Origin: Pseudoalteromonas sp. GCY
Lineage (GTDB): Bacteria > Pseudomonadota > Gammaproteobacteria > Enterobacterales > Alteromonadaceae
Assembly: GCF_016695175.1 (NCBI RefSeq)
Contig: NZ_CP068023.1
Coordinates: 1,290,501-1,354,500 of the forward strand
Direction of reading: 5' to 3'
DNA length: 64,000 nucleotides
In this document: one piece after another, positions 4,262-31,026 of the stretch
Layout: each line of letters opens with the position of its first letter
How positions within the stretch are numbered: the first letter of the stretch is position 1
Position numbers and translations under genes: made by a program
Notes under the pieces: model-generated
What the model was told of the DNA's origin: nothing
The model's database searches: none
The model's input: the letters and a program-made list of their open reading frames with translations, nothing else

Positions 4262-7200
4262 ATGCGCGGTTTAGCCTTATTTAGTATCTTTGTATTCGCA
4301 CTGATTGCCACACCAGTATATACCCAAGAGGGGGTAGTGCTAAAAGGCCCTAAAGGGGTTGATTATGGGGCTCAAGGTCGCTCAATAGGGCCTATCAGAC
4401 CCACGGATACATTGTGGCGGATAGCACAAAAAGTGCGACCAGATGACTCGGTCACCATTTATCAGGTGATGAAGGCGCTTTACGATAAAAATCCTAATTC
4501 ATTTCTAGATAAAAACCTCAACCATATGCAGGATGGGGCGTATTTACGTATTCCTACCATCAATGAAATTCGCAGTGTTAACCCTGAGTTGGCAAAGCAA
4601 AAGTCGGATCAAGATGACAAACTTTGGGAAATGAAGCGTAAGGGATTATTGAACTCAAATGCAATAAACGAAGCTGAAAAAAAGGTTACACAAGCTCGCA
4701 AAGTCGATGTAGAAGAAGCAAAAGAAGACCTGACTAATCAACTGCGCTCTTTAAAGATGGAACAGGACATGCGTCTGATGGACTTACAAAAAGAGTTCAA
4801 ATCCTCGGTGCGCAATGTTGAAGAAATCCTATCTGAAAACAATAAATTAAAGCAGCAGCTCGGCGCTATTTCTACTGAACTTCAAACGGTTCGTACCCAA
4901 CTTGGTAAAGACAGCGAAATCCAGCAACAGCTCAAGGCTGTTATTGACTTGCAAAATGAAATGATTGACCAGCAGGCGGCTCAGGCAAAAGCGCAAGAAA
5001 GTAGCGAGTTAAGCGCATTCTTTAGCTCGCCAGCTGGAATTGCGTTACTTGCCACATTACCAGCACTACTGGCAATTGCTGGATTAGTTATGTTCCTACG
5101 CCGGAGAAACCAATCTCAAGCGTCGACAGATGACGACGATTTTCTTCCGCAAACACCATCCGTGGCTGCAGGCGCTGCGGCGGCGGGAGCTGCAACCGCT
5201 GCGACTGCATTTGACCCTGAGCCAGACCCACTTGATATCGGAATGGGCGACGATGAAGACGCGCTAGGCGCAAGCGTACAGTTAGATGACGATATCTTAC
5301 CTGAAGACGATGAGATTACCTTTGACTCACTTGATGACGACTTCGATGAAGGAAATGACACGTTAGATCAAGATGAACTGGATAGCTTGCTAAACGAAGA
5401 TATTTCGTTTGGTGATGATCATGACGAAGACTTTATGCAACAGAGCTTCAATGAAGCTGGCGATGAAGTTTCGCTTGATGTTGATGATAGCCAAGATATC
5501 TTAAGTGACAGCGATCTAGATGATTTATTCAACGAGTCTCAAGATGAAGAAATTGATGTTAGCGATGATGCCCTTGCAGCCCTGAGCGAAGAACTCGCTG
5601 ATGAGCAAGCGGGTGCTGTTGCAAATGACGATGATATCGATTCAATCCTTGACGGTGCGCTAGATGAAGAGCCTGAATTTAGCGGCAATTTTGATAGTGA
5701 GAGCTTGGTCGATGCTGATGATATCGATGCGCTACTTGATGCCTCTCAAGATGCTGACGATGATGCACTGCCTGATTTTGAGGAGCCAAGCACTGAGCTT
5801 GCGGGTGATGATATTGATGCCCTGTTAAATGAAGTGCAAGACGATGCATTAGCTGAAATTAACGAAGAGCCAGATACGCTTGACGGTGATGATATCGATG
5901 CTTTATTGGATGAAGCGCAGGAAGATACGTTGCCGGAACAGGAAGAAGAGTCCGATGATCTCGCTGGTGATGATATTGATGCTTTATTGGATGAAGCGCA
6001 GGAAGATACGTTGCCGGAATTAGAAGAAGAGTCCGATGATCTAGCAGGTGATGATATCGATGCTTTATTGGATGAAGCGCAGGAAGATACGTTGCCGGAA
6101 CAGGAAGAAGAGTCCGATGATCTCGCTGGTGATGATATTGATGCTTTATTGGATGAAGCGCAGGAAGATACGTTGCCGGAATTAGAAGAAGAGTCCGATG
6201 ATCTCGCTGGTGATGATATTGATGCTTTATTGGATGAAGCGCAGGAAGATACGTTGCCGGAATTAGAAGAAGAGTCCGATGATCTAGCTGGTGATGATAT
6301 TGATACTTTATTGGATGAAGCGCAGGAAGATACGTTGCCGGAATTAGAAGAAGAGTCCGATGATCTAGCTGGTGATGATATTGATGCTTTATTGGATGAA
6401 GCGCAGGAAGATACGTTGCCGGAACTGGAAGAAGAGTCCGATGATCTAGCAGGTGATGATATCGATGCTTTATTGGATGAAGCGCAGGAAGATACGTTGC
6501 CGGAACTGGAAGAAGAGTCCGATGATCTAGCAGGTGATGATATCGATGCTTTATTAGATGAAGCGCCAGAAGACGTTTTACCAGAGCTGGAAGAAGAATC
6601 TGATGAACTGGCAAATGACGAACTCGATGCATTAGTTGACGAAACACCAGAAGATGTTTTGCCAGAGCTGGAAGATGAGTCTGCTGAACTGGCAAATGAC
6701 GAACTCGATGCATTAGTTGACGAAACACCAGAAGATGTTTTGCCAGAGCTGGAAGATGAGTCTGATGAACTGGCAAATGACGAACTCGATGCATCACTAG
6801 AGGAAACGGCAGAAGATACTTTGCCAGAGCTTGAAGAGGAAGTTGATGAGCCGGCAGATGACGAACTCGATGCATTACTAGAGGAAACGGCAGAAGATAC
6901 TTTACCAGAGCTGGAAGAAGAATCTGATGAACTGGCACATGACGAACTCGATGCATTAGTTGACGAAACACCAGAAGACGTTTTACCAGAGCTGGAAGAA
7001 GAATCTGACGAACTGGCAAATGACGAACTCGATGCATTAGTTGACGAAACACCAGAAGATGCTTTGCCAGAGCTTGAAGAGGAAGTTGATGAGCCGGCAG
7101 ATGACGAACTCGATGCATTAGTTGACGAAACACCAGAAGATGCTTTGCCAGAGCTTGAAGAGGAAGTTGATGAGCCGGCAGATGACGAACTCGATGCATT

Positions 7201-9103
7201 ACTAGAGGAAACGGCAGAAGATACTTTACCAGAGCTTGAAGAAGAATCTGACGAGCCTGAACTGGGGTCTGAACAGCCTTCAGTAGAGTCTGAGCAAACG
7301 GAGTCAGGGCACTTGTCGGGTATGTTGGATGAAGAGGATGCTATTCCGGAATCACCTGAAGAACCGGTGGAAGATACATTACAGTCCGATCTAGCCAATG
7401 AAGCAGATTTTAGTGATGAGAATGTTCAAGCTGACGAAGACAGTGAATTTGAAGATCCTGATTTAAAAAGTGTTGATGAGCTATTACAGGAGCTTCAAGC
7501 CGAAGAACAGTTTGAGTTGAATGCTGAACTTGAAGACGACTTTTCGGATGAAGAAGTTGAAATTGAGCTGGGAGATGATCCACTTAATGACGAAGTGGAT
7601 TTACTGGCAGAAGAAGAGTTTCTTGATGAAGAAGATCTGCAACCAAGCGCAGAGCTAGAGAGTTACCCTGAGCTGGAGCTTGGCGAAGAGCTTGAAACTA
7701 CAGACTCGCAAAGCGAAACCGAAAAAACATTATCAGAAGCATTATCTAATGACGCTCAATTTGATATCGAAGATGGGCTTGATGACGATCTTCTCGACGA
7801 TGAAATCTCTGGCTTTGATGAAGATGACTTGCCTGAATTTAGTGCGGATTTCGACGAAGAAACTTTGCTTGAAGACGAACCTGAAGCACCAGTCGAAGCA
7901 GCAGAAAGTGACACGTTTGAGTCTGAGCTTGAAATCGAAGACGAGCTGCCAGAGTTAAATGCAGATTTCGACGAAGAGACTTTACTTGAAGACGAACCTG
8001 AAGCACCAATCGAAGCAGCAGAAAGTGATACGCTTGAGTCTGAACCTGAACTGGAAGTCGAAGACGAGCTGCCAGAGTTAACTGCAGATTTTGACGAAGA
8101 TACCTTGCTTGAAGACGAGCCAGAAGCGTCACTAGAAGAAGCCGAAAGTGACACGTTTGAGTCTGAACCTGAACTTGAACTTGAACTGGAAGTCGAAGAC
8201 GAGCTGCCAGAGTTAACCGCAGATTTCGATGAAGAGGCTTTGCTTGAAGACGAACCTGAAGCACCAATCGAAGCAGCAGAAAGTGATACGCTTGAGTCTG
8301 AACCTGAACTGGAAATCGAAGACGAGCTGCCAGAGTTAACTGCAGATTTTGATGAAGAGGCTCTGCTTGAAGGTGAGCCTGAAGCGCCAGTCGAAGAAGC
8401 TGCAAGTGATACGCTTGAGTCTGAACCTGAACTGGAAATCGAAGACGAGCTGCCAGAGTTAAACGCAGATTTTGACGAAGAGGCTTTGCTTGAAGACGAG
8501 CCAGATCTTGAAATTGAAGAGGCTCTGCCAGAATTAAACGATGAAGATGACTTGGAAACTCTACTTTCTGAGCCACAAACAGAATCTGAATTACCAGAGG
8601 TCAATGAAGCCGAAATTGAAAAAGAATTTATGGCTGACTTTACCCAAGCAGACTTCGATGCTCTACTCAGCGAACTGGAGGATCCCAGTGACTTTGACGC
8701 CGGAAATGCAGAAGATTTTGAAGTAGATTTCGATAGCTTGTTACAAGACGAATTGGTCGCAGGGGAAGTCCAAGCGCTACCTACGGACGCCGAAGGTTCA
8801 GAAGACTACTTAGAAATTGAAGACCTACTTGAACAAAGCGACGATCTTGATAGCGATGTTGAACCTTACGTTGGCGCAAATATGGACGTTGGGCTTGGCG
8901 ATTTTGAAGAGCTATTAGCGGGAGAAAATACTACGGATGTTGATTTAGAGGATGAAGGATTTGCCGCTAAATTAGATTTAGCAAAAGCTTACATCGAAAT
9001 TCAAGATTATGATTCGGCTATATCAACGCTCAACGATGTTATTGAGAACGGTCCGGATTCGGTGCAAGCTGAGGCTAAGTCGCTTAAATCCAGTCTTACA
9101 TAG
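4262..9103 (+). CDS. fimV: FimV-type giant acidic repeat protein (LysM, membrane anchor, C-terminal FimV motif)
   Basis: A 1613-residue FimV/HubP-like polar organiser. A signal peptide (about 1-21) is followed by a LysM-like peptidoglycan-binding stretch (about 46-100, TDTLWRIAQK...LRIPT), coiled coil (about 135-245) and one membrane segment (about 258-279). A huge acidic cytoplasmic region (about 285-1540) comes next, and the protein ends with a conserved TPR-like FimV motif (LDLAKAYIEIQDYDSAISTL). The acidic region contains 18 uninterrupted 27-residue repeats and a second family of about 40-residue repeats. In relatives, FimV/HubP proteins mark the cell pole and organise type IV pili, flagella and chemoreceptors. 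AAAGGA lies before the ATG. The location between asd and truA is usual in Alteromonadales and Vibrio relatives. Confidence 0.93.
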   Translation: MRGLALFSIFVFALIATPVYTQEGVVLKGPKGVDYGAQGRSIGPIRPTDTLWRIAQKVRPDDSVTIYQVMKALYDKNPNSFLDKNLNHMQDGAYLRIPTINEIRSVNPELAKQKSDQDDKLWEMKRKGLLNSNAINEAEKKVTQARKVDVEEAKEDLTNQLRSLKMEQDMRLMDLQKEFKSSVRNVEEILSENNKLKQQLGAISTELQTVRTQLGKDSEIQQQLKAVIDLQNEMIDQQAAQAKAQESSELSAFFSSPAGIALLATLPALLAIAGLVMFLRRRNQSQASTDDDDFLPQTPSVAAGAAAAGAATAATAFDPEPDPLDIGMGDDEDALGASVQLDDDILPEDDEITFDSLDDDFDEGNDTLDQDELDSLLNEDISFGDDHDEDFMQQSFNEAGDEVSLDVDDSQDILSDSDLDDLFNESQDEEIDVSDDALAALSEELADEQAGAVANDDDIDSILDGALDEEPEFSGNFDSESLVDADDIDALLDASQDADDDALPDFEEPSTELAGDDIDALLNEVQDDALAEINEEPDTLDGDDIDALLDEAQEDTLPEQEEESDDLAGDDIDALLDEAQEDTLPELEEESDDLAGDDIDALLDEAQEDTLPEQEEESDDLAGDDIDALLDEAQEDTLPELEEESDDLAGDDIDALLDEAQEDTLPELEEESDDLAGDDIDTLLDEAQEDTLPELEEESDDLAGDDIDALLDEAQEDTLPELEEESDDLAGDDIDALLDEAQEDTLPELEEESDDLAGDDIDALLDEAPEDVLPELEEESDELANDELDALVDETPEDVLPELEDESAELANDELDALVDETPEDVLPELEDESDELANDELDASLEETAEDTLPELEEEVDEPADDELDALLEETAEDTLPELEEESDELAHDELDALVDETPEDVLPELEEESDELANDELDALVDETPEDALPELEEEVDEPADDELDALVDETPEDALPELEEEVDEPADDELDALLEETAEDTLPELEEESDEPELGSEQPSVESEQTESGHLSGMLDEEDAIPESPEEPVEDTLQSDLANEADFSDENVQADEDSEFEDPDLKSVDELLQELQAEEQFELNAELEDDFSDEEVEIELGDDPLNDEVDLLAEEEFLDEEDLQPSAELESYPELELGEELETTDSQSETEKTLSEALSNDAQFDIEDGLDDDLLDDEISGFDEDDLPEFSADFDEETLLEDEPEAPVEAAESDTFESELEIEDELPELNADFDEETLLEDEPEAPIEAAESDTLESEPELEVEDELPELTADFDEDTLLEDEPEASLEEAESDTFESEPELELELEVEDELPELTADFDEEALLEDEPEAPIEAAESDTLESEPELEIEDELPELTADFDEEALLEGEPEAPVEEAASDTLESEPELEIEDELPELNADFDEEALLEDEPDLEIEEALPELNDEDDLETLLSEPQTESELPEVNEAEIEKEFMADFTQADFDALLSELEDPSDFDAGNAEDFEVDFDSLLQDELVAGEVQALPTDAEGSEDYLEIEDLLEQSDDLDSDVEPYVGANMDVGLGDFEELLAGENTTDVDLEDEGFAAKLDLAKAYIEIQDYDSAISTLNDVIENGPDSVQAEAKSLKSSLT
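5807..7264 (+). repeat. Tandem 81-bp repeats in fimV (18 in-frame units)
   Basis: Eighteen consecutive 81-bp units encode the 27-residue pattern DDIDALLDEAQEDTLPELEEE plus SDDLAG, with no change of period. Units starting at 5888, 5969, 6050, 6131, 6212, 6293, 6374 and 6455 are nearly identical in DNA. Later units diverge to a DELDALVDETPEDVLPELEE form that is again homogenised among themselves. This indicates recent unit duplication or conversion. Confidence 0.95.
7823..8520 (+). repeat. Second repeat family in fimV (about 39-45 residues per unit)
   Basis: Six imperfect units carry the pattern DELPEL(N/T)ADFDEE(T/A)LLEDEPEAP, each followed by an AESDTLESEPELE-type stretch. Length variation comes from extra ELE tripeptides, for example ELELELEVE in the third unit. 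These are distinct from the 27-residue units upstream. Confidence 0.9.
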
Positions 9104-25363: not shown

Positions 25364-26734
<1,371 letters not shown>

Positions 26735-26756
26735 TTAGCATTCCTCGGAATATTTT

Positions 26757-26787
26757 AAAAACGCCAGTTTAGCTACTGGCGTTTTTT
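26757..26787. terminator. Bidirectional terminator between eno and the RiPP-like gene
   Basis: ACGCCAGT and ACTGGCGT pair around TTAGCT, flanked by A4 and T6. It ends eno on the plus strand; the minus-strand gene ends five bases beyond it and could use the same hairpin, although its T tract (from A4) is short. Confidence 0.9.
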
Positions 26788-26791
26788 ATTG

Positions 26792-26983
26792 CTAGCGGTC
26801 GTCACCCCAAATTTCACAATTTGCTTGGCCATTTCTAAATGTCCAACAGACTTGAAGTGAATTACAAGCATCATCCATTGTTGCAGGACCATTACCTCCA
26901 GCAACAGCCGGCGTCATCTTAGTAGCAAGTGTTTTGTTCACACTAAGTTCTTTAATCGATTTTTTGTTGAACTTTAATTTCAT
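26792..26983 (-). CDS. Putative RiPP/bacteriocin-like precursor peptide with double-glycine leader
   Basis: The gene encodes 63 residues. A basic leader (MKLKFNKKSIKELSVNK and so on) runs to MTPAVAGG at residue 30, a double-glycine motif of the kind cut by C39-type peptidase transporters. The predicted core of 33 residues has three cysteines (DDACNSLQVC and ANCEIW), two tryptophans and an acidic end. AAGGAAA lies at good spacing before the ATG, supporting translation. Leaders of this style are common in precursor peptides of Pseudoalteromonas and Shewanella natural-product clusters, but no modifying enzyme or transporter gene is in this window. It has its own putative promoter downstream of mutH. 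The peptide class and activity are unknown. Confidence 0.65.
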   Translation of the reverse strand: MKLKFNKKSIKELSVNKTLATKMTPAVAGGNGPATMDDACNSLQVCWTFRNGQANCEIWGDDR

Positions 26984-27050
26984 TGTCGTTTCCTTCTATA
27001 AAAATATAAATGTTAACCAAATCCATACAAGATGTTGGTTGTTTTACATT

Positions 27051-27074
27051 TGTACTTTTTGTACAAAAAGTCAA
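27051..27074 (-). promoter_or_regulatory. Putative promoter of the RiPP-like gene with an 18-bp perfect palindrome
   Basis: On the minus strand TTGACT (27074-27069) is a good -35 element. The perfect palindrome ACTTTTTGTACAAAAAGT (27054-27071) overlaps its end and fills the spacer, where a dimeric repressor would block RNA polymerase. A further TGTAC lies at the edge. The -10 element is weak (AATGTA or similar). Placement between the mutH stop and the peptide start makes this the obvious control site. Confidence 0.5.
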
Positions 27075-27083
27075 CAGGTGTTT

Positions 27084-27758
27084 TTAAGCACCAAACTCTT
27101 GCGCCAATATCGATTGGGTGAAATTGATTTTTAAATAAAAACCTCTTGGCAAAGTTTGCACTATTTTACCGTTCGGCCCTATGGCGTCGGTGAGTGCTTT
27201 GGCATTTGCCGCCTTTGGCCTTATCTGCATGACTTCTCCAAGATGCCCTGAGATTTTTTCTACGTGACCCGTAGCGATTAACTCGATTTGCTCTTCCCAG
27301 TCTCTTCGTAACAACTGTTCTTGATTCGCGTCTGGCCGCCATAGGAAGCCGTGTCCAATAACCCTAGCTATTAAAGGAATTTCTCGTTCGGCTAATATGG
27401 GTAGCCAGAGAACGTGAGCTAATTTCTTTTTAACACTCGACGCTTCCCACGTTAATCCTGTTAACTGAGTAAGCGGCACGACAGAAACATAGGTGGTCTC
27501 TAGTGGTTTGCCTTGATAGCTTATTGGCAAAGTCTTGAGTTCAACGCCGATATGCTCAAAATCAGGCACAGGCTTTGAACCCGCTGTGGCACCTAAGGCT
27601 GCTTCTATGAGTTGTCCTACCCAACCTTTCTCTCTGAGCAAGTCTTGTGGTGTTTTAAACGAGAGCTGCTGAGCGAGTTCACCCAATGTTAAACCAGCTA
27701 TATTTTCAACACGCTGCATAAGTTCGCCCACAGAGCGTGGTGGTGTAACTGATGGCAA
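27084..27758 (-). CDS. mutH: DNA mismatch repair endonuclease MutH
   Basis: MutH nicks the unmethylated strand at hemimethylated GATC when activated by MutS-MutL. The 224-residue protein holds the PD-ExK nuclease residues Asp66, Glu73 and Lys75 in PDFEHIGVELKTLP, with the same spacing as E. coli Asp70/Glu77/Lys79. Its presence implies Dam-directed repair, restricting the host to gammaproteobacteria of that type. It is divergent from rppH, as expected for this region. Confidence 0.96.
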   Translation of the reverse strand: MPSVTPPRSVGELMQRVENIAGLTLGELAQQLSFKTPQDLLREKGWVGQLIEAALGATAGSKPVPDFEHIGVELKTLPISYQGKPLETTYVSVVPLTQLTGLTWEASSVKKKLAHVLWLPILAEREIPLIARVIGHGFLWRPDANQEQLLRRDWEEQIELIATGHVEKISGHLGEVMQIRPKAANAKALTDAIGPNGKIVQTLPRGFYLKINFTQSILAQEFGA

Positions 27759-28197
27759 GCGATACTCCTGAGTCTATCCCTTAAAAATACGATTATAAAA
27801 GAAATCATGTGGCGAAGTAAGTTGGTTGTTTTGCACTCAATTTAAGTGTGGCTTGTTATTTCAGCATATGGCTAAAGTAATGCCTTTATTATCTATATGA
27901 TAAATATGAAGTTATTTTTATTTTGCTACAGTCGGAGCAGCTTAGAAATCTTATGGCTTTGGATAAATACAAGACTATAAACATAATTATCCACAGAATA
28001 TGTGGAAAACCTTAGGTTTGAAGTGTGTAATTGTGGATTTGTTCGTAATTTGAACTGAAAAATGCTTGGTTATGCACAAGTTGTGGGTAACTTGCGAGTA
28101 TGCTGAGATAATTTAGGTATAGAATGGAATTAAATTTGCCGTGACGCGGGAGTTGTGGAACAATCATTAAAAATCGACTTATAAATGAGGCACTAAG
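27759..28197. other. mutH-rppH intergenic region, AT-rich, with DnaA box cluster
   Basis: The 439 bases hold no gene I can support. The left half is AT-rich with a short dyad (TTATC/GATAA, 27889-27903). The right half carries at least five DnaA-box-like nonamers (27987-28090), described separately. The rppH promoter must also be here, but I could not pick a clear -35/-10 pair with normal spacing. Confidence 0.7.
27987..28090. promoter_or_regulatory. Cluster of DnaA boxes, candidate DARS2
   Basis: Nonamers seen: TTATCCACA at 27987-27995 (plus, perfect consensus); TTTTCCACA at 28001-28009 (minus, one mismatch); AAATCCACA at 28032-28040 (minus, two mismatches); TTATGCACA at 28070-28078 (plus, matches TTATNCACA); TTACCCACA at 28082-28090 (minus, one mismatch). 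The first two face each other five bases apart. In E. coli, DARS2, which recharges DnaA-ADP to DnaA-ATP, lies in the mutH-rppH intergenic space, the same place as here. IHF and Fis sites were not identified with confidence. Confidence 0.7.
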
Positions 28198-28722
28198 GTG
28201 ATTGATGCCGAAGGGTTTCGTGCCAATGTCGGAATAGTGATTTGTAATAATCAGGGGCAGGTTTTTTGGGCCCGTCGTTACGGACAACACTCTTGGCAAT
28301 TTCCTCAAGGTGGAATAGATCAAGGGGAAACACCTGAGCAAACGATGTATCGTGAACTTCATGAAGAAGTTGGACTTAGGCCAGAAGATGTTGAAATAGT
28401 AGCAAGTTCTAAACATTGGTTACGTTACAAACTACCAAAAAGGTTAATTAGACGAGATTCAAGCCCAGTTTGTATCGGGCAAAAGCAGAAATGGTTTTTA
28501 TTGAAACTTAGGTGTAAAGATGAAGACGTAGACTTATTACGTACGCATCACCCTGAGTTTGATGATTGGCGTTGGGTTAGCTATTGGTATCCAGTACGTC
28601 AAGTTGTATCGTTTAAGCGTGATGTCTATCGTCGAGTGATGAAGGAATTCGCTCCGTTTGCGATGCCATTTGGTAAACGTGAACAGCAAGGGCAGAAGGA
28701 TTTCTGGCGCACGAAACGATAA
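28198..28722 (+). CDS. rppH: RNA pyrophosphohydrolase
   Basis: RppH removes pyrophosphate from 5'-triphosphorylated mRNA, opening it to RNase E decay. The protein of 174 residues starts with [18 protein letters not shown] aligns with the E. coli N-terminus. The Nudix box runs from residue 38 to 60 ([20 protein letters not shown] and VGL) with all consensus residues. ptsP begins 15 bases after the stop with the ribosome site in between, the conserved rppH-ptsP pair. Confidence 0.97.
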
Positions 28723-28737
28723 AAAAAGGAGCAGCAG

Positions 28738-31026
28738 GTGTTAGCAACGTTAAGATCGATTGCTGAGTCAGTGGCACAGCAAAGTGACCTACAAAGCGCG
28801 TTAAATTGCTTTGTTACTATGGTCAAAGATGCCATGCACACTGAATGCTGCTCAGTTTATTTTGCCGATTACAGTCAAGATAACTTTATCTTGATGGCAA
28901 CAGATGGCTTAAACCCTGAAGCAATTGGGAAATTCCGAATGGGATTTACCGAAGGCTTAGTCGGTCTTGTTGCCCAGCGTGAAGAGCCAATTAACGTTGC
29001 CCATGCTCAATCACACCCAAGATTTAAACTGTCACCCGAGGTCAATGAAGAAGGCTACAATGCTTTCTTATCAGTGCCTGTTGTACACCAGCGCAAAGTG
29101 CTTGGGGTTATTGTGGTGCAGCAAAAGATTGCTCGTGTATTTAGCCATGATGAAGAGTCCTTTCTTATTACGCTTTCAGCGCAATTGGCTTCACAGCTTG
29201 CCAACACCGAGATCCAAACTTTACTTCAACAAGATGCAAGCAGTCACAGAACCTCAGTGTTAAAAGGGGTATCGAGTGCACCAGGTATTGCCTTAGGTGA
29301 TGGTTATGTGGTGTTACCCCATATTGATTTTGCGAGTATTGAACCGCAGCATAGTGACAATATTCAGCAGCAAATTCAGCTGTTTCATCAAGCGGTGGCC
29401 GCGACTCGGCAAGAATTCCATATTTTAGCCAAAACTCTGAGTGATGATATTCCGAAAGAAGCGGTAGCTGTGTTTGAGGTTTACCAGCAACTTTTGGATG
29501 CCAAGAGTTTAGGTAAACAAGTGGAGTCTGAAATACAACAAGGCTGGAACGCAAAAACCGCGCTAAAGCTTGTTATCGAAAAGCTTGTGGCTCAGTTTGA
29601 TATGATGAGCGACCCCTATATCAAAGAGCGTGCGATTGATGTTAATGATATTGGCCTGCGCGTGCTCCAGCATTTAGTCTCAACTGAGCAAGCTGTTAAA
29701 CACTATCCAGATAATACGATTCTAATCGCCCATACCTTGACCCCAACTATGTTAGCGCAAGTACCAAAAGAAAAGCTCAAAGGGGTAGTCAGTGTGCATG
29801 GCTCGGCCAACTCTCATGCCTCCATTCTCACTCGCGCGATGGGCGTCCCCGCTATTTGGGGGATAGAAGACATTCCATTATTACAGTTTGATGGTAAGTC
29901 TATGATCATGGATGCGTATTCTGGACGGCTTTATATTTCGCCTTCGCAAATGTTGGTCAATGAGTACGTTGAAATCAAACGTAAAGATAACATTCTGCAT
30001 GATAAGTTTGAAGCGGAACATGATTTGCCGCCTATTACACTCGATGGTGAGCGTATAAATTTACTCTTAAATGCTGGGCTTGATCTATCGACCGAAACAT
30101 TAAGCGCCAGTTATTGCGATGGGGTTGGTCTTTATCGTACTGAGTCTTGGTTTATGCAAAAAGGCCAATTCCCAACACAATCGGAGCAAGAAGTCTGGTA
30201 TCGCGAGGTGCTATCACGTTATCACCCTGAGCCCGTAGTGATGCGGACTTTAGATATCGGTGGCGACAAAATTCTAGATTACTTTGATATAAAAGAAGAA
30301 AACCCATTTTTAGGGTGGCGGGGCATTCGTGTATCGCTGGATCACCCCGAGCTTTTCTTGGATCAGATCAAAGCCATGATCAAAGCAAATGCGGGTCTTG
30401 GCAACTTACAGATCATGTTGCCTATGGTGGGTCATAGTGAGGAAATAGATGAAGCGATGGCGCTCATTGAGCAGGCTTGTTTTGAGCTGCAAGACGAATG
30501 GGCCGATCCTTTTTACACCATCGACCGGCCAGAAATCGGCGTAATGCTTGAAGTACCGTCTAGCGTGTACTTGTTACCTGAGTGGTCGAAAAAAATCGAT
30601 TTTTGCTCTGTGGGCAGTAACGATTTAACGCAGTATTTATTGGCAGTAGATAGAACAAATGCACAAGTGGCGGATCTTTTTGAGCCCTATCATCCCAGTG
30701 TATTACGAGTGTTAAACCAGATTGCACAGCAGTGTGAGCTGCACGAGCTACCTTTTAGCCTGTGTGGAGAGTTAGGCGGTGAGCCTGAGGGCGCAATCTT
30801 GCTTATTGCAATGGGGTATCGCCGTTTGAGCATGAATATTTCATCACTGAACAAAGTAAAATGGGTGCTACGCAGACTGAGAGTAACGGATATGGAAGCT
30901 TTACTTGAAAGGTGTTTAGCACAACCTTCATCTAAGCAAGTGCGCCGAATTATTAAAGAATTCATGATTGAACATCATTTTGCAGAATTACTCTATACCA
31001 GCCACCAAGCAAAGGGTGCTTCTTAA
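28738..31026 (+). CDS. ptsP: Phosphoenolpyruvate-protein phosphotransferase PtsP (enzyme I-Ntr)
   Basis: PtsP starts the nitrogen phosphotransferase chain (PtsP to NPr to PtsN), passing phosphate from PEP. The 762-residue protein has an N-terminal GAF domain (about 15-160), then the enzyme I parts: an N-terminal segment from about 175, the swivelling phospho-histidine domain with His360 in GSANSHASILTRAMG, and a TIM-barrel PEP-binding domain with GSNDLTQYLLAVDR and SLCGELGGEP near the end. The start is GTG, with AAGGAG ahead. It shares an operon with rppH and probably with the following permease, lgt and thyA. Confidence 0.96.
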   Translation: MLATLRSIAESVAQQSDLQSALNCFVTMVKDAMHTECCSVYFADYSQDNFILMATDGLNPEAIGKFRMGFTEGLVGLVAQREEPINVAHAQSHPRFKLSPEVNEEGYNAFLSVPVVHQRKVLGVIVVQQKIARVFSHDEESFLITLSAQLASQLANTEIQTLLQQDASSHRTSVLKGVSSAPGIALGDGYVVLPHIDFASIEPQHSDNIQQQIQLFHQAVAATRQEFHILAKTLSDDIPKEAVAVFEVYQQLLDAKSLGKQVESEIQQGWNAKTALKLVIEKLVAQFDMMSDPYIKERAIDVNDIGLRVLQHLVSTEQAVKHYPDNTILIAHTLTPTMLAQVPKEKLKGVVSVHGSANSHASILTRAMGVPAIWGIEDIPLLQFDGKSMIMDAYSGRLYISPSQMLVNEYVEIKRKDNILHDKFEAEHDLPPITLDGERINLLLNAGLDLSTETLSASYCDGVGLYRTESWFMQKGQFPTQSEQEVWYREVLSRYHPEPVVMRTLDIGGDKILDYFDIKEENPFLGWRGIRVSLDHPELFLDQIKAMIKANAGLGNLQIMLPMVGHSEEIDEAMALIEQACFELQDEWADPFYTIDRPEIGVMLEVPSSVYLLPEWSKKIDFCSVGSNDLTQYLLAVDRTNAQVADLFEPYHPSVLRVLNQIAQQCELHELPFSLCGELGGEPEGAILLIAMGYRRLSMNISSLNKVKWVLRRLRVTDMEALLERCLAQPSSKQVRRIIKEFMIEHHFAELLYTSHQAKGAS

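Follow-up and report, generated by a model that had tools for sequence, protein, structure and literature searches.

Sites of the DARS type are marked by a head-to-head pair of DnaA boxes, I and II, joined by a stimulating box III, as described in the pertinent passages of PMC10380432 and PMC8682772. According to the part of PMC4585315 that deals with their location, Escherichia coli DARS1 and DARS2 lie on opposite replichores, and a speculated DARS3 is mentioned there as well. The same source quotes the deletion primers for DARS2 boxes I-III of strain MG1655, and the MG1655 DNA between the two primer arms reads TTCTTCACA-ACT-CTATCCACA-GAAAA-GGTGAATAA followed by four bases. Passages of PMC8682772, PMC4245941 and PMC10380432 report DARS-like sequences in many proteobacteria. 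DARS2 homologues are known in Vibrio cholerae, Shewanella denitrificans and others, and it has already been published that related gammaproteobacteria conserve the core together with IBS1-2 and FBS2-3 (PMC8682772, PMC4245941). A further non-coding element, datA, likewise carries DnaA boxes and an IHF site, but the description in PMC10380432 sets it apart by its different box set and its opposite biochemical effect.

Our search of the open-access literature, with most subscription papers outside its scope, found no paper joining Pseudoalteromonas, DnaA and DARS. The locus studied here is a cluster of DnaA boxes in the gap between mutH and rppH of Pseudoalteromonas sp. GCY. A sequence-only reading had called it a likely DARS2 equivalent, a view that the core grammar, the genomic address and the conservation in close relatives now support.

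Results

A three-box core between mutH and rppH

The window is the whole stretch of DNA analysed, 64,000 nucleotides long (C2:1290501-1354500). The genome consists of two replicons of 4,181,162 and 1,291,188 bp, with dnaA at C2:16-1392. On the left of the cluster lies mutH (27084..27758, minus strand), identified by its open reading frame and a Pfam MutH match (8.2e-33) and transcribed away from the gap. On the right lies rppH (28198..28722, plus strand), identified in the same way by a NUDIX match (2e-26); the gene after it encodes a PtsP-like enzyme, in which Pfam finds GAF and PEP-utilising domains. The divergent mutH/rppH pair matches the annotation of the E. coli MG1655 region, and the order of the genes after it is the same. 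The two Pfam assignments bear out the earlier placement of the cluster in a mutH-rppH gap. The E. coli location named for DARS2 in the sequence-only reading is correct by the MG1655 annotation and the published deletion primers. Pfam on both sides, the MG1655 annotation and the gap survey described below thus all place the cluster in the intergenic position of DARS2. The gap is 439 bp long, against 696 bp in E. coli when measured alike, has 34% G+C (window 43%) and contains zero GATC. A search of 26700-28800 against Rfam returned zero matches. Elsewhere in the window, 5804-8499 consists of tandem repeats with 81-bp and 123-bp units, and the 81-bp array (5804-6571) translates in an open frame into acidic repeats (GDDIDALLDEAQEDTLPELEEESDDLA).

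The core occupies 27975-28009 and reads CTATAAACA-TAA-TTATCCACA-GAATA-TGTGGAAAA, that is, box III, 3 bp, box II, 5 bp and a facing box I. Box II (TTATCCACA, 27987..27995, plus strand), the middle element of this 9-3-9-5-9 layout, is invariant in all 15 aligned Pseudoalteromonas gaps. Box I (TTTTCCACA, 28001..28009, minus strand) faces it across 5 bp, and neither box has a mismatch to TTWTNCACA, so the head-to-head pair of a DARS is present in exact form. The third box stands in tandem with box II at a distance of 3 bp. This box III (CTATAAACA, 27975..27983, plus strand) occupies the place of E. coli TTCTTCACA; it is weak, with 2 of its 9 positions departing from TTWTNCACA, and its position and AACA end are conserved in the genus, AACA being invariant in 15 of 15 aligned gaps. 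The sequence-only reading had counted five DnaA-box-like nonamers within 104 bases (27987-28090), two of them facing each other five bases apart. All five (27987, 28001, 28032, 28070 and 28082) are there, and the facing boxes are 27987 and 28001. It had called one box perfect; three are in fact exact to TTWTNCACA (27987, 28001 and 28070). Its list lacked box III. The left edge of the core lies 12 bp before its segment, and only 27987 and 28001 of its five boxes belong to the core.

The remaining three boxes are accessory and partly variable. The weak box AAATCCACA (28032..28040, minus strand), in the block ATTGTGGATTTGTT, has 2 mismatches to TTWTNCACA; the GTGGA at 28033-28037 does not vary among the 15 aligned Pseudoalteromonas gaps. 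The box TTATGCACA (28070..28078, plus strand) matches TTWTNCACA exactly, and TTATNCACA follows the core in 12 of 15 gaps of the genus. It is faced across 3 bp by TTACCCACA (28082..28090, minus strand; 1 mismatch), and TGTGnnTAA recurs downstream of the core in 14 of 15. On the other side of the core a weak DnaA-box-like TTATCCAAA (27958..27966, minus strand) sits in the block TTGGATAAATACA; of 16 Pseudoalteromonas gaps, 13 have GGATAAATAC at -14 relative to box III. The alignment of 15 gaps is conserved in box II and the larger part of box I, in the AACA that ends box III and the AAATACA before that box, in GTGGA (28033-28037), and in a GGAACAATC block close to rppH.

The window's site and E. 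coli DARS2 are alike in the III-II-I layout of 9-3-9-5-9, in spacings and orientations, and in lying within a divergent mutH/rppH gap. From the start of the core to rppH the distance is 223 bp in the window and 192 bp in E. coli. Compared with E. coli DARS2, the window has a stronger box I, a weaker box III, the extra conserved block TTGGATAAATACA beside box III and two accessory boxes downstream, and counterparts of FBS2-3 were not found in its gap. E. coli DARS1, in the bioD-uvrB gap, has the identical three-box layout on the other strand. The Vibrio and Shewanella DARS2 homologues, as far as the published passages describe them, have the core and the genomic position in common with the window's site.

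Rarity of the core

DnaA boxes as such are not enriched in the window, which holds 9 exact boxes against a shuffle mean of 8.6. The segment 27987-28090 is the sole 104-bp stretch of the window with three exact boxes, a number that 0 of 40 dinucleotide-shuffled windows reached. When the 439-bp gap was shuffled 2000 times, a facing 5-bp pair at 0-1 mismatch never arose, and on the three-box score the best shuffle had 5 mismatches, against 2 observed. The pair TTATCCACA-N5-TGTGGATAA occurs at 3 places in the 5.47-Mb genome when at most 1 mismatch is allowed, namely here, at C2:881163 and at C1:420066. With up to 3 mismatches there are 6 places, against 0 for a reversed-pattern control.

The core was then expressed as a matrix, trained on rows in which the core lay 120-230 bp before rppH and had no more than 5 mismatches overall and no more than 3 in the facing pair. 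The set held 49 rows with 44 distinct mutH-rppH cores, a few of them doubtful and none from the window's family. The site at 27975 scores 31.8 bits and ranks first in the 64 kb; the next unrelated site reaches 6.9, also the best value over 61 off-site window pieces of about 1 kb, and the same pair read inverted gives 5.9. The training cores range from 15.8 to 52.3 bits and 37 of the 44 score higher than the window's core, which is therefore a divergent member. E. coli DARS1, from outside the training set, scores 37.7 bits, with the next unrelated site in 3 kb at -8.7. This 9-3-9-5-9 matrix provides a simple search tool for such sites elsewhere in the order.

Conservation across the order

All 13 named Pseudoalteromonas records keep the core, one of them (L141) being nearly the window itself, so the boxes are conserved in close relatives, on which the earlier claim had been made to depend. 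When a record was counted as positive if its core was reached by at most 1 in 100 shuffles, 45 of the 80 named records were positive and 35 negative. Besides Pseudoalteromonas, the positives are Rheinheimera (6), Alishewanella (2), Arsukibacterium (1), Alkalimonas (1), one unassigned MAG, and 21 records of Shewanella, Vibrio, Aliivibrio and Photobacterium. Among the same 80 records the core-negative gaps belong to Alteromonas, Paraglaciecola, Aliiglaciecola, Glaciecola, Salinimonas, Colwellia, Thalassotalea, Idiomarina, Pseudidiomarina, Aliidiomarina, Psychrosphaera, Gayadomonas and some MAGs. In 31 of the 35 negative records the gap measures 69-231 bp, and one negative score, that of L187 (Vibrionales SWAT-3), is owed to a contig end that leaves only about 200 bp before rppH.

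A survey of further genomes covered 90 loci and E. coli. The window's family was represented by 39 of its 98 genomes (the 30 best RppH matches and 9 picked), and the other 51 loci are part of 103 non-family genomes with a match. The core was present in 12 of the 39 genomes of the window's family and in 34 of the 51 from other families of the order, several of the latter having their best core nearer mutH. The mutH-rppH gap of the remaining 27 family genomes had no core; among such genomes facing pairs remain by uvrB and, in many, by pta. Of 20 stretches taken before rppH from outside the order, none had a core, the best score being 2.3 bits; they came from 20 of 155 class-level genomes with a match (a set that also contains the window's genome, G000, and G001), mostly better-scoring ones, and one stretch (L286) had only 669 bases because of a contig end. 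The sequence-only reading had suggested that the same locus controls the DnaA cycle in this lineage. This fails for the family as a whole: with 27 of 39 surveyed genomes lacking the core, the locus cannot be a general controller of the DnaA cycle there, and the core has been dispensable on that time scale.

IHF-like and Fis-like sites

The IHF consensus TAAnnnnTTGATW, taken from a legend in PMC4245941, matches two places upstream of box III in the window. At 27890..27902 (plus strand) TATCTATATGATA lies 85 bp before box III with 2 mismatches, at the location of the Pseudoalteromonas -85 site, which 8 of the 16 gaps of the genus have with no more than 1 mismatch. The alternative, TAATGCCTTTATT at 27878..27890 (plus strand), lies 97 bp before box III with 1 mismatch; since this falls in the TTGA part, the site may bind weakly. 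With 1 mismatch at -97 and 2 at -85, IHF binding in the window's strain is plausible but not secure. The -85 site found in half of the Pseudoalteromonas gaps compares with a site at -87 in E. coli DARS2. We take the latter to be IBS1, because a second consensus match follows 3 bp on, as the relevant passage of PMC4245941 describes for IBS1-2.

Across 87 core-positive gaps (L141 left out as a near-duplicate; relatives not independent), same-strand matches with at most 1 mismatch fall at -83 to -88 in 19 and at -94 to -98 in 16, and the five positions between these registers hold a match in 1. Both registers together account for 35 of 87 gaps; 200 shuffles gave 1.2 on average and never more than 6. 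The registers were picked after viewing the offsets, and slid windows served as the control: slides of 5 bp either way gave 1 and 3, slides of 10 bp gave 19 and 20 because one register then overlaps the other, and other slides gave 0 to 4 of 87. The registers follow lineage. In the window's family 16 of 34 gaps have the near register and 1 the far one, this single far case being the window's -97 site, and in the Vibrio family 0 of 22 have the near and 10 the far. No IHF-like site at this threshold was present in the two registers of 52 of the 87 gaps, which include 4 of 5 from the E. coli family and all tested members of families f8, f12, f15, f16, f20 and f25. In the E. coli experiments reported in PMC4245941, moving the IHF sites towards FBS2-3 left partial activity at 5 bp and moderate activity at 10 bp, and moving them towards the core by 5 or 10 bp left partial activity in both cases, so that in this account distance as well as phase mattered.

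A scan for IHF and Fis sites had been proposed for this locus; its IHF half turned up the sites above, weak in the window, and its Fis half gave no hit to the published consensus around the window's core. A loose scan gave one doubtful Fis-like palindrome, GTTCGTAATTTGAAC (28041..28055, plus strand; 1 mismatch). Fis-like sites showed no conserved offset; 3 of 16 Pseudoalteromonas gaps have a match, which is about chance by estimate. E. coli DARS2 needs FBS2-3, whereas no Fis site at a conserved place was found here. The genome does encode relatives of Fis (68% identity to E. coli) and of DiaA (54%).

Cores at other addresses

The window's genome has a second DARS-type core at C2:881163 (L011:1501-1523). 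It lies between four tRNA-Asn genes and MATE-uvrB, 1.8 kb ahead of uvrB, which is the DARS1 address, with rnf/rsx genes on the other side; the nearby UvrB is 74% identical over 325 E. coli UvrB residues compared. Its third box stands at 3 bp with 2 mismatches, and it scores 30.5 bits in 40 kb, where the next unrelated site reaches 6.1. This three-box core is as in DARS1, and its address differs from that of the mutH-rppH site. On a scale with the origin at C2:1 and the terminus at half length, the uvrB-side core lies at 0.42 and the rppH-side core at 0.63, on one replichore. Two other genomes of the genus (G018 and G064) also have facing pairs at both the uvrB-side and the mutH-rppH addresses.

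The second replicon carries a perfect palindromic facing pair at C1:420066 (L010:1501-1523), some 85 bp before a sodium:alanine symporter gene, with the adjacent DNA masked. We set it aside as a third DARS of this genome: box III is missing on both sides, the score is 18.6, and in G018 there are just two sites. Close to the end of the same replicon, C1:1280400-1281200 (L140) holds three exact TTATNCACA boxes among recurring GATC-rich stretches that contain TTTACTAA; judged by these motifs, it is perhaps the replicon's replication origin.

When up to 2 mismatches are allowed, the family's 98 genomes hold the facing pair at 253 places, against 15 for the reversed pattern, and 97 of the 98 have one or more. 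Addresses were tabulated for 47 genomes, 38 of them from these 98, in a non-random sample that consists largely of the genomes at the head of the list of pairs and does not include every site of each genome. Placed by neighbouring genes, 35 of the 38 family genomes have a facing pair by uvrB, MATE or rsxA; in 22 a pair lies by pta, yfbV or a gene of the ACT-domain, EIIA-like or patatin-like kind. Any match to these gene families sufficed, so paralogues may be included. Pairs by pta, the ACT-domain gene, the EIIA-like gene or yfbV stand at the centres of L105, L109, L110, L115, L117, L125, L245, L247 and L319, loci of family members and of G102, and pta-side pairs often have a poor box III, with 1 to 4 mismatches. 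Other genomes of the family have additional facing pairs that lack a good box III (L232, L236, L237, L238, L134, L239 and L242). In both L232 and L134 the pair is flanked by a gene that we take to encode a CorC-like membrane protein and by one for a small lipoprotein, which may mark a further address.

The combination of addresses varies. All three (uvrB, mutH-rppH and pta) are occupied in G017, G020, G022, G042, G081, G097 and G102, the last of which appears Shewanella-like from its core and has its third core about 190 bp from pta, at 25.9 bits. The uvrB- and pta-side pairs are present and the rppH core absent, for example, in the family members G024, G062 and G096. The window's genome, G018 and G064 have the gene order yfbV-pta-ACT and no core on that side, the best scores in 20 kb each being -2.3, -0.8 and 2.0 bits, respectively. 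Some family genomes have the uvrB-side site alone, so there is no strict rule of two.

Discussion

The address, the grammar of the core, its conservation throughout the genus and the presence of a uvrB-side core make it very likely that the mutH-rppH cluster is the Pseudoalteromonas orthologue of E. coli DARS2. By analogy with the E. coli biochemistry in the passages of PMC10380432, PMC8682772 and PMC4245941, the site would reactivate DnaA. Two ADP-DnaA molecules would sit head to head on boxes II and I, a third DnaA on box III would stabilise the complex, and IHF would bend the DNA upstream of box III, possibly with assistance from Fis. Contacts between AAA+ domains would then lead to ADP release, and the apo-DnaA would depart and take up ATP, enlarging the initiation-competent pool.

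Could the boxes instead make transcription of rppH or mutH responsive to DnaA, with nucleotide exchange uninvolved? The cluster does lie between divergent genes, with the accessory boxes (28032-28090) within about 170 bp of the rppH start, and E. coli DARS1 precedes uvrB, whose transcription is reported in a passage of PMC6015884 to be controlled by DnaA. In a scan the facing pair also looks like a terminator hairpin on the minus strand (1 found, 0.2 in shuffles). We rejected the idea that the core tracks the regulation of these two genes because facing pairs recur in the family by uvrB/MATE/rsxA and pta/ACT. Moreover, mutH-rppH gaps without the facing boxes are common, and the gap has one sigma-70-like site against a shuffle mean of 2.2. 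We therefore regard transcriptional control as unlikely.

Slightly less probable still is a plain titration site, which would bind DnaA and leave its nucleotide state unchanged. Titration on the E. coli chromosome is argued for in parts of PMC12371093, and several good boxes in a short stretch would suit it. Boxes would be enough for such a site, which has no need of a set orientation, constant 3- and 5-bp gaps or phased IHF-like sites. The facing pair is also rare: allowing 1 mismatch it has 3 places, whereas exact TTATNCACA sites number 229 genome-wide. The description of datA in PMC10380432, DnaA boxes plus an IHF site, fits the gap in outline too, and the cluster would then promote ATP hydrolysis on DnaA together with IHF; given that the arrangement is that of DARS boxes I-III and the address that of DARS2, we consider this highly improbable.

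Taking the family and its kin together, we tentatively propose that cores of the DARS type turn over among three or more addresses (uvrB, mutH-rppH and, as a DARS3 candidate, pta), in which lineages may lose one and keep others, and in which IHF at mutH-rppH may take one of two lineage-set registers about a helical turn apart. The loss of the core in relatives, the pta-side address and the two IHF registers are absent from the main-text passages on DARS2 homologues. With DARS-like sequences and the Vibrio and Shewanella homologues already in print, the window's site adds a member to an established type. The comparison raises tests of why relatives could drop the mutH-rppH core, of whether the pta-side pairs are active and of whether being on the correct helical face is the main requirement for IHF. 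As the very likely orthologue of DARS2, the site would extend the DnaA reactivation system of E. coli to a two-replicon marine genus in which both E. coli addresses are occupied.
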